Of a stretch of DNA of 64,000 nucleotides, positions 54,590 through 60,315 are shown in pieces. Source of the stretch: Lachnospiraceae bacterium (GTDB lineage: Bacteria > Bacillota > Clostridia > Lachnospirales > Lachnospiraceae); NCBI GenBank assembly GCA_024693135.1, contig JAILLN010000048.1, forward strand, positions 1-64,000, read 5' to 3'. The translations under genes were made by a program, and so were the position numbers. The notes below the pieces were generated by a model, which did no database searches, was not told where the DNA came from, and worked only from the letters and a program-made list of their open reading frames with translations. Numbering within the stretch: position 1 is the stretch's first letter; every line of letters begins with the position of its first letter.

Positions 54590-55138
54590 CTAATCCTCCG
54601 TCTCTTCTCCATATAATCCTTTGATATAAGCCTTAAAGGAAAGCTCTCCTGCGGCATAGGAAAGGATTCCCTTAAGGGTATCCTCCAGGTCTTCAGCAGC
54701 CGCATCAAGGGCGTCGGACAGGACTGCTGTAAAGCGCTCTGCCGGCAGTTCGGGCACGATAGGGATGGTATAGCGGTACAGCAGCTGCTTCGGGATCAGG
54801 ACTTCTTCGTCCTCTTCCAGATCCATGGCGTAATGCCCGCCGCAAAGCACCCCGTTGGTCACCGCAAGCAGCACCGCCAGATCTCCCTTGGATTCCGGAG
54901 GGAATTCCGAAAGATCCCCAAGCCTTCCCTCCATAAGCAGATAGGAGATGTCCTGCAGCTCCTCCTTCTGCGGCAGGAATCCCAGATCCAGATAGATATC
55001 CCCTCCGTACTCCTTTCCGCTTAGAAGCAGGGACAGTATGGTACCGTCCTCCGAAAGCCGGGCCGCGATGTGCCGGCTGTTCAGGTCATCACATAAGGAT
55101 GAAAGGGCTTCTTTTTGTTTTTTGATCAGGTCCTCCAT
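54590..55138 (-). CDS. Unrecognised 182-residue acidic protein (cassette protein A)
   Basis: I do not recognise a family with confidence. It has an N-terminal helix, a beta stretch (GGDIYLDLGFLP), then VTNGVLCGGHYAMDLEEDE, a strand with YRYTIPIVPEL and a C-terminal helix. The NG-x3-GG turn followed by a short strand and a xPxV/I segment resembles the protein at 59146-59622 and, loosely, YbjN/type III chaperone-like folds (inference). There is no signal peptide. It lies 106 bp behind the 1011-residue protein and is coupled to the GT4 gene. Confidence 0.7.
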   Translation of the reverse strand: MEDLIKKQKEALSSLCDDLNSRHIAARLSEDGTILSLLLSGKEYGGDIYLDLGFLPQKEELQDISYLLMEGRLGDLSEFPPESKGDLAVLLAVTNGVLCGGHYAMDLEEDEEVLIPKQLLYRYTIPIVPELPAERFTAVLSDALDAAAEDLEDTLKGILSYAAGELSFKAYIKGLYGEETED

Positions 55139-55161
55139 ATAATCCTCCGTTTATTCAGTCC

Positions 55162-55256
55162 ATGCTCTCCTCAGGCTTTGAGATTCGGCTTTGAGATTCG
55201 CCTCCGCACGGCTGTCTGACCGATCCTTGCCATCGATGCTCTCCTCAAGCCCCGAG
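55162..55256. repeat. Diverged duplication of a gene 3' end
   Basis: ATGCTCTCCTCA occurs at 55162-55173 and 55236-55247, the second copy including the stop codon of the 1011-residue protein. Flanking sequence is also similar (period 74 bp). Within it, a 13-bp unit GGCTTTGAGATTC is repeated twice at 55174-55199. Confidence 0.6.
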
Positions 55257-58200
55257 CTTCGCCGCGATCTGAGCTGCGTTTGGCTGTCTGTCTTCCCTAG
55301 GCGTATATTTGATGTGAAGGAAGTCCGCCACCGAGCTTCCGGCTCTCTCTGCCCTGGTCCGTTTCGGAAAGCTGATCTTCAATCCCAGGCTCTTTATGAT
55401 CTGATAGCAGGCAAGCCCCGTTTCATCCAGATCCTTGTCGCTTTGTACCTCTTCCCTGTCCTTTCGGAAGAAAAGATTTTCATAAAGGAACTGGGCATAG
55501 TTTCCTAGAATATGCCGGTATAGGCTTTCCGAGGAAGTAAAGCCCAGCTCTGCCGCCATATGCTCCCTTAAGCGGCTCCTGTATTCCTTCTTTTCCTTTC
55601 CCTTAAGCTGCAGCCACCCGGCACCGAAAAAACGCTCTCCCATGCTGTCCAGCTGCAGGAATTCATCCACGGCGGATTTCTTTTTCTTCTTATCCACAAA
55701 ATAATTGACGATCCGGCTTCCCACGGCGATCCCCGCCGAAGTTATGGACCAGCCAAAGGTTAAGAGCGGTGCCGCAGGCAGAGCCATGAAGTTTACGATG
55801 CTTACCCCAAGGGAGGTTAAGTCGGTAGCAAAATTGAGCGTATTGTTGGCGATCTTCTGTGCCTCGCATCTGGCTCTGAGCTTTACGATCCCTGTGGCAT
55901 ACTCCGCATCGTTCCCCTGAAGCTTTCCTTTTTCCTTAAGCTTCGATACCCGGTATGCTCCGACGGCCAGATGTCCTGCATGCTTTACTTCCTTGAATCC
56001 CTCCAGGGTATCCGCCGCAAGCTTTACCCCGGCTACGGCCATTCCGCCGCCGGCCACCACCTTGATGCCGATGGGTGTGGCCTCTTTCACAAATCCGCTC
56101 AGCTTCTCAGCACCCTTCGTAAGCTCTCCCAGCTTCCCTGCCTTTTTCATGGCCTTGGGTACGGACAGCAGCATATTCGCGGCACCGGATACCAGCCCCC
56201 AGTCCGTAGAAATGGTGGTGCTGGCAAGCTTCGCCATGTCCACCATCAGATCGCTGTACCCCACCCCGGATTTCATATGGCGTATGATCCCCACTATCCC
56301 CACGACCCCGCCGATGGCTCCGATGACGCCCTGGATGGAGGAAAACGTCGCCGCGCTCACATTGAGGATTGACGTTCCCACGATCTGGCCTACACTCATC
56401 TCTCCGCCCGGCCCGCCCCAGATCGACGGGATCTTATCAATCTTTGCCATCACGGACACTCCCTGCTTGATCAGGAACCTGGCCGTACCCGGATTCTTGC
56501 TTTTAAAGCCCTTATCATATCCGGATTGGAGCTTCTCTATGATCCGCTCCCCTTCCATATCCTGTTCAATGTCCAGGTTCTCAGGCAGGCCGTATTCCTT
56601 CTTCAAAGAAGAGATCATGAGGCTCAAGTTATGATCCGCAAGCTTCAGCTCATCCAGCCTCTTTGCCGCATTCCTGCCCTTTTCCTTGACGGCCTCCCTT
56701 TTTCCCCCTTTCTTGATCAGGGCAGAATCCCTTTTCTGTATGGCATCCCTGCATTCCATCAAAGCCTTCAGATATTCCTGAAGGCAGACGTCTCTTTTCA
56801 GCTCCAGCCTTGAAACGGCACTCCTCTTTTCGGCCATCTCCCGGATGGTTTTCTTATCCTCTTCGGTCAATTCTCCTTCAAAGCCCTTAAGGAGTGCTTC
56901 CTCTTCCTCCTCAATGCTCTGCGCTCCTTCTTCCCCCTTCTGCCCCGTAAACATATCCATGCTCCGGATGGCCGTTCCTATGGATTCATTCTTTACGAAG
57001 GCTATGCCGGCCTCCAGCTTTTCCCAGGCGATCTCCGGCCTGAATTTTTTGCTGATCACGACAAGCTTCCTTTTTGCTCTTTTCATCAATCCCTTCGTGA
57101 CCCTCGCCTCGAATTTTTTCTCATCCGGGATGAAGCCCAGCTGGGAAACCGTGACATCCAGTGCATTCGGGCTGGAAAGACGGTTTTCCTGAATGAGATA
57201 ATACGCCAAAAGCCTCTCCCTTTCGGTAAGGGAAAGCAGCTGATCTAAAAAGGAGGGATTCCCGCCCTTCTGGTCGATATGGTTTATGATCCAGCGGTCG
57301 ATGGTATACAAGCCCTCCTGCTGCCCGGGAGAAAGAGGCGATTCCTTATCGTCTTTTTCGTTTTCCCCCGTCCGGCGGTCGACCCGGTAAGCCTCCCTTT
57401 TAACCTTTTCCAGGATGCCGTCCTGCTCCACCCCGAAGGCCTTTTGATGGGCGCTTTCTTCTGTCCCCAAAAGGCCCATTTTGTTTAAGAATTCCGTGGT
57501 AAGAGGATCCTTCAGTTCCTTCTTTAGAATACCCAGCAAAGGCGTGGCAGGAGGAGCCTCCTCCTCCTTCTTCTGGAAAAAATCCATCAAAGCATCAAAG
57601 CGTTCTATGGCTCTTTCGACCTCCTGCTTCCTGGGTCCCTGGATGAGCTTCTGGGAATAAAGCTCCTTATATTCCGCAACCAATGCTGCAAACGGCTTTG
57701 CGATCCGGTATAACCGTTCTGCCTTCTGCATTCCGGAAAGAAAGGGATCCTCCATGAGCTTCTTCCGGATGCCCCGGAAGGTCTTGAAAAACTCCTTTCC
57801 CCTCTTTGCCACCCCGTCCTTATGCTCCTTTCCGGCATAGGTATCCAGTACGGTCTTTAGGGACTTCCCGCTTTGTAATACATGCTTCCGGGTGATCTCA
57901 TCCATCTTCAGGGAGCGGACCACTCGGTCGCGTTCCTTCCTCGCCTCCGGTGTCAGATTATGCAGATCCTCCTCTGCCCTGAGGTCTCCCTCCAGCACCT
58001 GCTCCTTTTCCAGGATCGCCATATCCATCAGGTCTTTTACGGCATCCTCTTTTTTCTTTTTTGCCGATTCTGAAATCTGGCTTAAATCCTTGGAATATTC
58101 CTCATAAAGGCTTATGGCTTCCACATCGGAAAAGAAAAGGGCCTCCTCCTTCCGAGATTGATCCTCCGTCTGCGTTTCCGCTGTCTTATTGACCTCCACG

Positions 58201-58280
58201 GGCTGCCTTGAGACCAGGTCGCTGTATACCGTCCGGATCTTTTCCTGCTTTACTTCAGCGCCGGTGTCATTTCCGCTCAT
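55245..58280 (-). CDS. Unrecognised 1011-residue protein with central hydrophobic segments
   Basis: I recognise no family. Residues 1 to about 620 are charged, Lys/Glu-rich and probably helical, with no signal peptide. Three hydrophobic Gly/Ala-rich segments follow at about 627-668 (IQGVIGAIGGVVGIVGIIR), 735-758 (IKVVAGGGMAVAGVKLAA) and 813-863 (LPAAPLLTFGWSITSAGIAV). The last about 150 residues are charged again (LGNYAQFLYENLFF). The pattern recalls pore-forming or membrane-inserting effectors, but it could equally be a structural protein. The ATG at 58280 overlaps the GNAT stop by 4 bp and has a G-rich site upstream; a further ATG 10 codons earlier is less likely. Confidence 0.8.
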   Translation of the reverse strand: MSGNDTGAEVKQEKIRTVYSDLVSRQPVEVNKTAETQTEDQSRKEEALFFSDVEAISLYEEYSKDLSQISESAKKKKEDAVKDLMDMAILEKEQVLEGDLRAEEDLHNLTPEARKERDRVVRSLKMDEITRKHVLQSGKSLKTVLDTYAGKEHKDGVAKRGKEFFKTFRGIRKKLMEDPFLSGMQKAERLYRIAKPFAALVAEYKELYSQKLIQGPRKQEVERAIERFDALMDFFQKKEEEAPPATPLLGILKKELKDPLTTEFLNKMGLLGTEESAHQKAFGVEQDGILEKVKREAYRVDRRTGENEKDDKESPLSPGQQEGLYTIDRWIINHIDQKGGNPSFLDQLLSLTERERLLAYYLIQENRLSSPNALDVTVSQLGFIPDEKKFEARVTKGLMKRAKRKLVVISKKFRPEIAWEKLEAGIAFVKNESIGTAIRSMDMFTGQKGEEGAQSIEEEEEALLKGFEGELTEEDKKTIREMAEKRSAVSRLELKRDVCLQEYLKALMECRDAIQKRDSALIKKGGKREAVKEKGRNAAKRLDELKLADHNLSLMISSLKKEYGLPENLDIEQDMEGERIIEKLQSGYDKGFKSKNPGTARFLIKQGVSVMAKIDKIPSIWGGPGGEMSVGQIVGTSILNVSAATFSSIQGVIGAIGGVVGIVGIIRHMKSGVGYSDLMVDMAKLASTTISTDWGLVSGAANMLLSVPKAMKKAGKLGELTKGAEKLSGFVKEATPIGIKVVAGGGMAVAGVKLAADTLEGFKEVKHAGHLAVGAYRVSKLKEKGKLQGNDAEYATGIVKLRARCEAQKIANNTLNFATDLTSLGVSIVNFMALPAAPLLTFGWSITSAGIAVGSRIVNYFVDKKKKKSAVDEFLQLDSMGERFFGAGWLQLKGKEKKEYRSRLREHMAAELGFTSSESLYRHILGNYAQFLYENLFFRKDREEVQSDKDLDETGLACYQIIKSLGLKISFPKRTRAERAGSSVADFLHIKYTPREDRQPNAAQIAAKLGA

Positions 58281-59149
58281 TTCCCCGTCCCCCTTTCCAA
58301 AAGAAGGCACTGCATGTATTCCTGCACCAGATATTCCTTTTCCGGAGGATTAAAGGACTGCATCATGCCATAATAGATGTAGTCGTCATTTAAGGCCGTA
58401 AGGATCAGAAAATCTCCCCCGAAATCCTTCGCCGCCTCCTCGACCACGTCAGAAAACAACACCGGATACAGGCCTTTCCTTCCGGCTTTTTCCGTAAGAT
58501 AGGGCACGGAAAGATAAAGGACCTCCTCCCTGAGCTTCCTTGCGATCAGAACCGCCTCGATCTCATCCTTTTCCATCATAAAACGGCTGAAGCTTCCTTC
58601 CAGAGCGGACCGGACAAAGGAAAAGCCGGTCTCCCCCTGCCTGGAGAGCAGGGTACGGATGGCCTTCTCCTCTATTTTGTCATAAGGCAGGGATCCGGGA
58701 AGCTTTTTCCGGTTTTTCCGGATCAGATCAAAAAAGCCGGTATCCGCCATTTCCCTGTAGTGGTAGACCAAAAGCCTCCCATTCAGGGAAAGAGGCATGT
58801 AATCCCGGTGGCAGAAAAACCCGGTGATCTCCTCCGCATTCTGGTACTTTACAAAAGTCCTGCAGAGGATATTGGCCACGCCCTTCTTTTTCAGGTAATC
58901 CCTGCTGTATTCAAGAAGTCCCGTAGCGACCCCCTTCTCCCGGCATTCCTCCATGGTCATGATGTATTCCAGCCAGACATCCTTTCCCTTCCGCTTTGGA
59001 TGAGAAAAGACCGCATATCCCTGAAGCTTCCCATCCTTCAAGGCCGCGATCATGATGCTCTCAAAATGTTCCTTTTTTATGATGGCTCCCACATAGGGAG
59101 GAGCCGCCTGAAGCAGGGCCGCCTCCGGCTTTACCGCTGCATAATTCAT
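58277..59149 (-). CDS. GNAT acetyltransferase with a probable second, degenerate GNAT half
   Basis: The first half (about residues 20-120) is a GNAT N-acetyltransferase: motif A is LEYIMTMEECREKGVATGLL with the acetyl-CoA loop CREKGVA. The second half (about 170-285) repeats the alpha/beta pattern (EAVLIARKLREEVLYLSVPY ... FLILTALNDDYIYYGMM) without a clear loop. It has 290 residues. The start and stop overlap its neighbours by 4 bases each, so it is tightly coupled to both the 59146 gene and the 1011-residue protein. The substrate is unknown; modification of the large neighbour is possible (inference). Confidence 0.82.
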   Translation of the reverse strand: MNYAAVKPEAALLQAAPPYVGAIIKKEHFESIMIAALKDGKLQGYAVFSHPKRKGKDVWLEYIMTMEECREKGVATGLLEYSRDYLKKKGVANILCRTFVKYQNAEEITGFFCHRDYMPLSLNGRLLVYHYREMADTGFFDLIRKNRKKLPGSLPYDKIEEKAIRTLLSRQGETGFSFVRSALEGSFSRFMMEKDEIEAVLIARKLREEVLYLSVPYLTEKAGRKGLYPVLFSDVVEEAAKDFGGDFLILTALNDDYIYYGMMQSFNPPEKEYLVQEYMQCLLLERGTGK

Positions 59150-59622
59150 CGCCTTTCCCTTCCGCACCGTATGATTGTGGCGCTGTAACGATCTGCCATG
59201 GAAAGAGAAAGGGCCAGGCAGGAATCTGCTTCCTCTAAAAGCTCTCCCTCCTCGTGGATGCTTCCTACGGGTACCTTAAGCTGATAGATCACGGTGCCCT
59301 CCGACGGATTATAAGCAAAGCCGCCCAGAGGGATCTCGCCGTTTACCAGGGCGGTCTCCGCACAGACAAGGGCTAGGTTTTCCTCCGGGATTTCGGTAAG
59401 CACCGTGACCGTCACCATCATCACGGCGGCTCCGGGAATCTCAGCCCCTGCGATGCCGAATTCTGCCAAAGCCTCATTGGCCATGCCTCCAAAGCCGGAA
59501 AGCTCCATAACGAGCAGCCCCCCAAGAAAGCCCGTCTCCTCCGGAGAAAGGATATCGACTCCTTCTGCCCCGTTTTCGGTAAGTCTTTCTTCCAGTTTCC
59601 TTAATAGGTTCGGATAATCCAT
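59146..59622 (-). CDS. Unrecognised 158-residue protein (cassette protein B)
   Basis: A small soluble acidic protein without signal peptide: an N-terminal helix (MDYPNLLRKLEERLTENG), a strand (VMMVTVTVLTEIPEE), then ALVNGEIPLGGFAYNPSEG and a strand with YQLKVPVGS, ending in a helix. It shares the NG-x3-GG and xPV/I layout with cassette protein A at 54590. The ATG at 59622 is chosen although its site is weak; the longer frame would begin inside the 38-bp repeat region and has no ribosome site. ATGA overlap with the GNAT gene. Confidence 0.75.
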   Translation of the reverse strand: MDYPNLLRKLEERLTENGAEGVDILSPEETGFLGGLLVMELSGFGGMANEALAEFGIAGAEIPGAAVMMVTVTVLTEIPEENLALVCAETALVNGEIPLGGFAYNPSEGTVIYQLKVPVGSIHEEGELLEEADSCLALSLSMADRYSATIIRCGRERR

Positions 59623-59642
59623 GCTTTTCTCGCTTTCTCTTC

Positions 59643-59742
59643 TCCGGTGTGATTTCCCTGTTTTCTTTCGGTTGATGTGACAGGTTCTTTGCATTTTGGT
59701 TCTATCCGGTGTGATTTCCCTGTTTTCTTTCGGTTTATGTGA
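59643..59742. repeat. Direct repeat pair (38 bp, two copies)
   Basis: Copies at 59643-59680 and 59705-59742 differ at one base (TCCGGTGTGATTTCCC ... ATGTGA; period 62 bp). They lie just upstream of the 59146-59622 gene and downstream of the lipoprotein gene. Confidence 0.9.
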
Positions 59743-59763
59743 GGAAGTTGCCGGGGGCCGGCT

Positions 59764-60315
59764 TCAGGTGCCGGCGGTATTCTGGGAGGCCGTGACCACC
59801 TCTCCTGTGCCGTTCTGGCTCTGGGTCTGGCCGCTCCCGGTTCCGCTTCCCGTCCCCGTTCCGCTTCCTGTCCCCGTTCCGTTTCCTGTCCCCGTTCCGC
59901 TTCCCGTCCCCGTTCCGCTTCCCGTCCCCGTTCCGCTCTGCTTTTTTGCCTTGTCCGGAAGCACCACCTCCCGGCTTCCGTTCATCCTCATGTAAGGCTT
60001 CGTGACCCTGGGCTGGTTATTATAAGCCTCCCTGGCCTCCGTCAGGTAGTCCGGCCCGATGGGTTCCACCGTTTCATCGATGGATGCCAATACGGAATTG
60101 GCTTCCGCCATAGCCCGGTAGAGCCCGGAGGCATCGATCTTTCCTTCGCCTCCTGTAAGCCTTCCTGTAGGCTCGATCTTCAGGTCCTCCTCCAGGTCCA
60201 GCTCCTCCTCTTCCTTCGGCTCCTCCTTCGCCTGCTCCTTTTCCCCGCAGGCGCAGAGCAGCGCCATGAAAAAGATCAGACAGAGCGCCTTGATTTTATT
60301 CTTCCCGTCTTTCAT
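59764..60315 (-). CDS. Small lipoprotein with Gly/Thr repeat tail
   Basis: A signal peptide ending in the lipobox-like LLCAC (Cys about residue 20) predicts a membrane lipoprotein. A Glu/Lys-rich spacer, a short alpha-helical domain (about 55-110: DASGLYRAMAEANSVLASID) and a low-complexity GTGTGSGTGTGNG tail encoded by 12/18-base DNA repeats follow. It has 183 residues. GAGGGG lies 5 bases before the ATG. The function is unknown. Confidence 0.82.
   Translation of the reverse strand: MKDGKNKIKALCLIFFMALLCACGEKEQAKEEPKEEEELDLEEDLKIEPTGRLTGGEGKIDASGLYRAMAEANSVLASIDETVEPIGPDYLTEAREAYNNQPRVTKPYMRMNGSREVVLPDKAKKQSGTGTGSGTGTGSGTGTGNGTGTGSGTGTGSGTGSGQTQSQNGTGEVVTASQNTAGT

Follow-up and report, generated by a model that had tools for sequence, protein, structure and literature searches.

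What kind of system is encoded by a compact group of genes in a 64,000-nucleotide stretch of DNA from a gut bacterium of the Lachnospiraceae (contig JAILLN010000048.1, positions 1 to 64,000; the whole stretch is referred to as the window in the following)? The cassette combines two small acidic proteins, a GNAT-family acetyltransferase and a large protein that we call BIG. Our best explanation, to which we assign a probability of roughly 0.68, is that it constitutes an effector module of a contractile injection system (CIS) with BIG as its putative cargo; BIG is probably CIS cargo because some relatives keep the gene set beside this phage-tail-like injection machine. The cassette comprises the following features:

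59146..59622, minus strand: first small acidic protein, 158 residues, with a predicted fold like that of class I type III secretion system (T3SS) chaperones and YbjN; putative dedicated chaperone
58277..59149, minus strand: GNAT-family acetyltransferase, 290 residues; its N-terminal part, which holds an acetyl-CoA-type motif, is recognized by Pfam
55245..58280, minus strand: BIG, 1011 residues, putative CIS effector
56592..56864, minus strand: BIG residues 473-563, two long predicted helices, coiled-coil-like (low-confidence model)
56283..56369, minus strand: BIG residues 638-666, hydrophobic segment 1 (hydropathy scan)
56025..56081, minus strand: BIG residues 734-752, hydrophobic segment 2 (hydropathy scan)
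55755..55811, minus strand: BIG residues 824-842, hydrophobic segment 3 (hydropathy scan)
55248..55382, minus strand: last 45 residues of BIG, the end of a family-wide C-terminal signature
54590..55138, minus strand: second small acidic protein, 182 residues, of the same chaperone-like family; also present at five orthologous loci

A model that had seen only the letters and open reading frames (the sequence-only reading) had proposed a coupled system here, and its genes do lie where it placed them on the minus strand, in the order leucine-rich-repeat (LRR) proteins, lipoprotein, small protein, GNAT, BIG, second small protein and glycosyltransferase. Both four-base ATGA overlaps that it described are exact: the TGA stop of the first small protein (59148-59146) overlaps the ATG of the GNAT gene (59149-59147), and the GNAT stop (58279-58277) overlaps the ATG of BIG (58280-58278), which sets the GNAT gene to 58277-59149 and the beginning of the first small protein to 59622. 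The second small-protein gene starts 106 nucleotides past the BIG stop, with a ggagg site before its start, and its own stop abuts the start of the glycosyltransferase gene. Just upstream of the first small-protein gene lies a 38-nucleotide direct repeat (97%; window positions 59643-59680 and 59705-59742). The two small proteins on either side of BIG are indeed both acidic, with 37 D+E versus 15 K+R in the first and 28 versus 18 in the second (counted with 24 upstream residues), and the second falls in the same family as the first by iterated hidden Markov model (HMM) search.

The gene set is conserved. With BIG as a single-sequence query, matches were found in 26 of 99 genomes (its own included), all within one of 48 genera, while a 17-row profile found matches in 27 of the 48 genomes of that genus, with up to seven BIG genes per genome (G027; genomes carry our own handles, G000 being that of the window). 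Two further BIG genes in the window's genome are G000:C7 (L032:8822-13291) and G000:C30 (L033:8174-15139), one of them 2006 residues long, and a 193-residue gene adjoining the latter is unrecognized by the small-protein HMM. BIG represents an apparently undescribed Lachnospiraceae family; 17 named relatives are from Lachnospiraceae (one titled Clostridiales), including Lachnospiraceae bacterium AD3010 and XBB2008, and several originate from goat or water-deer rumen or abomasum.

All five close orthologues of BIG (43-46% identity) are accompanied by the small protein, the GNAT and the second small protein in the same gene order as here, and the outer neighbors of these loci differ from those in the window. 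The lipoprotein that the sequence-only reading had counted as a member is never the upstream gene there, and its LRR and glycosyltransferase neighbors are likewise absent beside the orthologues (glycosyltransferase in 0 of the 4 cases where the downstream gene is covered). What stands is that a GNAT and chaperone-like small proteins are coupled to a large protein that is probably membrane-active, and that related genomes keep these genes together. The composition is indeed unfamiliar, BIG and the small proteins having no Pfam or NCBIfam match over the curated cut-off.

For the genus, we collected the surroundings of nearly all places of BIG, including 66 BIG genes of at least 500 residues, and counted partners on the same strand within two genes of BIG. 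For 42 of these genes, the locus is uncut and includes two genes on either side; the small protein is present in 37 of them, a GNAT-type gene in 39 and both in 36. The counts for all 66 genes are 52, 57 and 48. Some of these loci come from near-identical genomes and are not independent, and the small-protein and GNAT profiles were partly built from them, so the fair comparison is the background rate: 292 genes more than three positions away from BIG yielded one small-protein and six GNAT-type matches. Furthermore, BIG, the small protein and the GNAT have correlated pairwise distances (0.68-0.81, 45 modules), as would be the case in a jointly inherited set. At 13 BIG loci outside the genus, counted by hand and in several cases cut by contig ends, the small protein lies within two genes at 11 and a GNAT at only 5; the chaperone-like protein therefore looks like the core partner of BIG and the GNAT like an accessory.

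The connection to a CIS emerges from the distribution of BIG. On another contig, the window's genome carries a CIS cluster with sheath, tube, Pvc16_N, DUF4280, CIS_tube, two Baseplate_J, Tail_P2_I and AAA ATPase genes, along with three putative membrane proteins. The sheath of this lineage (65-100% identity) is present in 24 of the 48 genomes of the genus, one per genome, and occurs together with BIG in 23, so that 23 of the 27 BIG genomes carry the sheath and two more Pvc16_N. The four BIG genomes without the sheath (G045, G010, G017 and G043) are 65-85% complete, those with Pvc16_N being G017 and G043. When only the 22 genomes with at least 90% completeness are considered, 10 have BIG and CIS, one has CIS only, none has BIG only and 11 have neither; five of these 11 carry a second CIS lineage. 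This second lineage (sheath pieces 45-61% identical) was seen in G009, G013 (L080-L081), G030, G032, G039, G042 and G046. BIG is found in none of these seven genomes (7/48 of the genus). On a recA tree of 38 genomes, the BIG and CIS traits change seven times each. Five independent pairs were drawn from 22 rows (at least 90% complete, or the window's own genome), and BIG follows CIS in 4.5 of them on average and never in the opposite direction (p 0.06-0.125); with all 38 rows, 3.4 of 5 agree, again with none opposite (median p 0.25).

The association extends to other genera. In a family-level sample of 397 genomes, 8 of the 10 BIG genomes outside the genus have Pvc16_N, against a background of 39/397 (38 over the cut-off), and in an order-level sample of 392 genomes, all five BIG genomes outside the genus do (background 27/392). 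Within genus g241, three BIG genomes have Pvc16_N and the BIG-free G291, G499, G565, G580 and G596 lack it. Overall, 11 of 13 distinct BIG genomes outside the genus have a CIS marker. The converse fails, since many Pvc16_N genomes are without BIG, as expected of a cargo bound to particular lineages.

In nine genomes, the BIG module lies beside CIS-type genes. G023 has the order FtsE-like gene, small protein, BIG, GNAT, orf443 and STAS, with the sheath about 21 kb further on, and the same orf443-STAS arrangement is found in the CIS region of the window's genome. A cut BIG end and a GNAT directly precede the first CIS-cluster genes in G016, the gene directly before BIG in G038 is an AAA gene related to that of the CIS, and G024 has, near the module, an FtsE-like gene and an AAA gene of the CIS type (91% identity); in G022, only FtsE-like and SpoIIE genes, both generic, are nearby. 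In other genera, the module is located shortly before the first CIS gene (G126, G441, G415), or BIG comes after the AAA ATPase genes that close the CIS cluster (G280 and G101, cut in the latter). Co-occurrence and gene context thus favor CIS cargo over the surface system that the sequence-only reading had implied, for which we found no support.

The CIS regions hold further genes. A CIS-cluster protein with a PF02321 match (1.1e-12; L052:16080-18152, G000:C43, 690 residues) is outer-membrane-efflux-like, has a signal peptide by eye and homologues at L070:10136-12232 and L075:4936-6996, and adjoins a MORN-repeat protein and a third large membrane protein; it is possibly a CIS envelope anchor, which would be odd for Lachnospiraceae. 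Genes for SpoIIE phosphatase (L041:11889-13625, L213:5043-6803), STAS (L053:9783-10088) and HATPase (L053:7545-8444), parts of a partner-switching regulatory circuit, sit with CIS clusters and some BIG modules. Large proteins of 1266-1926 residues upstream of CIS clusters (L040:13991-17986, L075:13430-17542, L082:770-4570, L213:12192-17972) have no clear Pfam families, with weak fn3 in one, and may be fibers or further effectors.

BIG itself shows the division described in the sequence-only reading, with 15-24 charged residues per 50 up to residue 600, followed by Gly/Ala-rich hydrophobic stretches. The 52 uncut members of at least 800 residues have a long charged part followed by hydrophobic segments, whose usual distances to the C-terminus are about 340, 250 and 170-150 residues; exceptions are five members with the last segment only and one (L046_07) with none. 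Most members have a common signature at their very C-terminus, whose spacer is longer in the BIG of the window than in its orthologues. The first 50 residues have an S/T/N/Q fraction of 0.32 versus 0.19 in the rest, an excess found in 49 of the 52 members (starts not curated); residues 1-58 are modeled with a predicted local distance difference test score (pLDDT) below 50, other regions being of low confidence too. A coiled coil, as judged from helices of this low-confidence model, precedes the hydrophobic helices, and PDB matches to residues 473-563 are mostly generic coiled coils. This layout suggests that BIG is probably membrane-inserting. Complete members vary between 745 and 2668 residues, and five long ones (1234-2668 residues) contain no convincing extra domain. 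Pfam scans of 17 members revealed no DUF4157, and their PHROG hits at E 0.1 include no tape-measure annotation, no profile-profile search having been made.

The first small protein is predicted with a pLDDT of 91.5 to form a helix, three strands, a helix, two strands and a final helix. Over nearly its full length, this predicted fold matches class I T3SS chaperones (SicP, CesT, ExsC, VecA) and YbjN/DR1245, YbjN and AmyR being among the best matches. A search for PDB profiles gave no relevant hit, and neither small protein of the window has a Pfam or NCBIfam hit at E 1. As to the 'tandem GNAT' that the sequence-only reading had seen, a GNAT gene does directly precede BIG; the tandem is unproven, because Pfam recognizes the N-terminal part only (PF00583, residues 27-98, 8.2e-9). 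The acetyl-CoA motif [RQ]xxGx[GA] occurs in 40 of 55 BIG-linked GNAT copies (shuffled mean 5.0, maximum 11), and Pfam at E 1 lists only Acetyltransf families and DUF5688 for the window GNAT, with no match to the HlyC family.

In the working that we envisage, BIG would be bound within the producing cell by either small protein or by both, which would shield its hydrophobic segments and pass it on for loading into the CIS. Candidate loading signals are the N-terminus of BIG, which is polar and putatively disordered, and its conserved C-terminal end. The GNAT would probably modify BIG or its chaperone, its presumed substrates, ahead of loading. Upon contraction of the CIS, the tube would expel BIG, whose Gly/Ala-rich helices could insert into the membrane of a putative target cell. 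A more far-reaching version, in which a Lachnospiraceae CIS relies on T3SS-fold chaperones to hold a large, multicopy family of membrane-inserting effectors and on a cassette-encoded GNAT to activate or mask the effector before loading, is tentative and, taken as a whole, doubtful; it would join T3SS chaperone logic and the acyl-activation logic of pore-forming toxins in one phage-tail machine.

Several observations weigh against the assignment of BIG as cargo. No CIS genes were found near the cassette in the window, where the only match is a generic histidine-kinase domain, and a convincing CIS-specific neighbor is present in 4 of the 69 BIG contexts of the genus (median of 9 genes per context). 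G014 has a CIS and lacks BIG, both CIS markers are missing from the BIG genomes G010 (85% complete) and G045 (84%), and two BIG genomes outside the genus, G108 (60% complete) and G323 (one weak hit), are without Pvc16_N; the tree test is suggestive, but by itself not significant. Pfam scans of BIG members revealed no toxin domain, the AlphaFold2 model of BIG is poor (pLDDT 59.6), the fold of the small protein fits YbjN-type regulators too, and outside the genus only 5 of the 13 BIG loci, some of them truncated by contig ends, have a GNAT within two genes.

Could BIG instead belong to the CIS as a structural component or assembly factor, such as a tape measure, membrane anchor or docking factor? 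A long helical protein with hydrophobic segments and linkage to CIS clusters would suit this role, but up to seven BIG genes (G027) face a single sheath of the lineage per genome, most copies have no CIS genes nearby in the DNA covered, and G014 has a CIS cluster without any BIG. Given, in addition, the wide range of lengths and the lack of a tape-measure annotation among the PHROG hits of the 17 members, we consider a structural role quite improbable. An intracellular toxin-immunity or phage-defense system, in which BIG depolarizes the membrane of its own cell, the small protein is the antitoxin and the CIS linkage reflects co-location in hot spots, is unlikely as well: autonomous two- to three-gene cassettes scattered over genomes, overlapping starts in the window and the membrane-active layout of BIG would agree with it, but not the tie to CIS presence in several genera, the absence of BIG from all seven genomes of the genus with the other CIS lineage, or the secretion-chaperone fold of its partner. 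Finally, a YbjN-like regulator alongside an enzyme that modifies a large membrane scaffold for surface structures would account for YbjN and AmyR among the best fold matches and for the surface proteins neighboring the cassette in the window. These neighbors, however, recur nowhere else in the 21 loci compared, and the hydropathy scan shows no N-terminal hydrophobic segment in BIG, making this explanation very hard to uphold.

The module is real, conserved, apparently undescribed and linked to a CIS lineage. If BIG is CIS cargo, it would be the first candidate cargo family for an apparently unstudied Lachnospiraceae CIS lineage, and its signature would allow cargo genes to be catalogued across whole genomes, even where they lie at a distance from the machine. 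A chaperone fold familiar from type III secretion would then serve in the loading of a contractile system, and the way in which CIS load very large hydrophobic cargo would become testable. CIS effector systems are already known; what is apparently new here is a CIS-effector-type module with a class I T3SS chaperone fold, which we did not find linked to CIS in the literature searched.

Among known systems, Tme of Streptomyces davawensis and Sle1 of S. lividans are described, in the accessible parts of the sources, as large CIS effectors with coiled coils and hydrophobic or transmembrane helices, Tme having DUF4157 and a nuclease domain and Sle1 being associated with DUF4157 proteins (PMC11126660, PMC13277306). 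BIG is also large, with coiled-coil-like helices and hydrophobic segments, but is accompanied by a chaperone-fold protein and a GNAT; we set aside its membership in the Tme/Sle1 group because the 17 members scanned have neither DUF4157 nor an annotated tape-measure PHROG match. Class I T3SS chaperones and YbjN/DR1245 share with the small protein a nearly full-length fold, a small acidic product and a gene beside the putative client, whereas sequence similarity is undetectable and the partner of the small protein in the cassette is linked to CIS. HlyC-type toxin-activating acyltransferases are encoded by genes coupled to a membrane-active protein. The cassette, too, pairs an acyltransferase-type gene with a membrane-active-type protein, but its GNAT matches ordinary acetyltransferase families, and the Pfam hits of the BIG members scanned include no RTX-repeat family. 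Pvc15-dependent cargo loading in extracellular CIS relies on disordered N-terminal cargo signals and an AAA ATPase, with no dedicated small T3SS-fold chaperone described in the accessible part of the source (PMC11495950). An AAA gene also directly precedes BIG in G280, G101 and G038.

A further parallel comes from Pseudoalteromonas luteoviolacea, which belongs to another phylum than the host of our cassette. As far as the accessible parts of the sources go, Mif1, a 943-residue cargo of its MAC contractile system (PMC6748791, PMC11796346), disrupts membranes (PMC11796346), and its loading into the MAC tube depends on JF50_12605, itself undetected in the particle (PMC6748791); a GNAT, part of the BIG cassette, is not mentioned there for Mif1. 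Both cases thus feature a cargo, or putative cargo, of about 1000 residues that disrupts or may disrupt membranes, together with a chaperone-like partner, and by this analogy, which is one of description and not of sequence or fold, the small protein is likely the loading chaperone of BIG.

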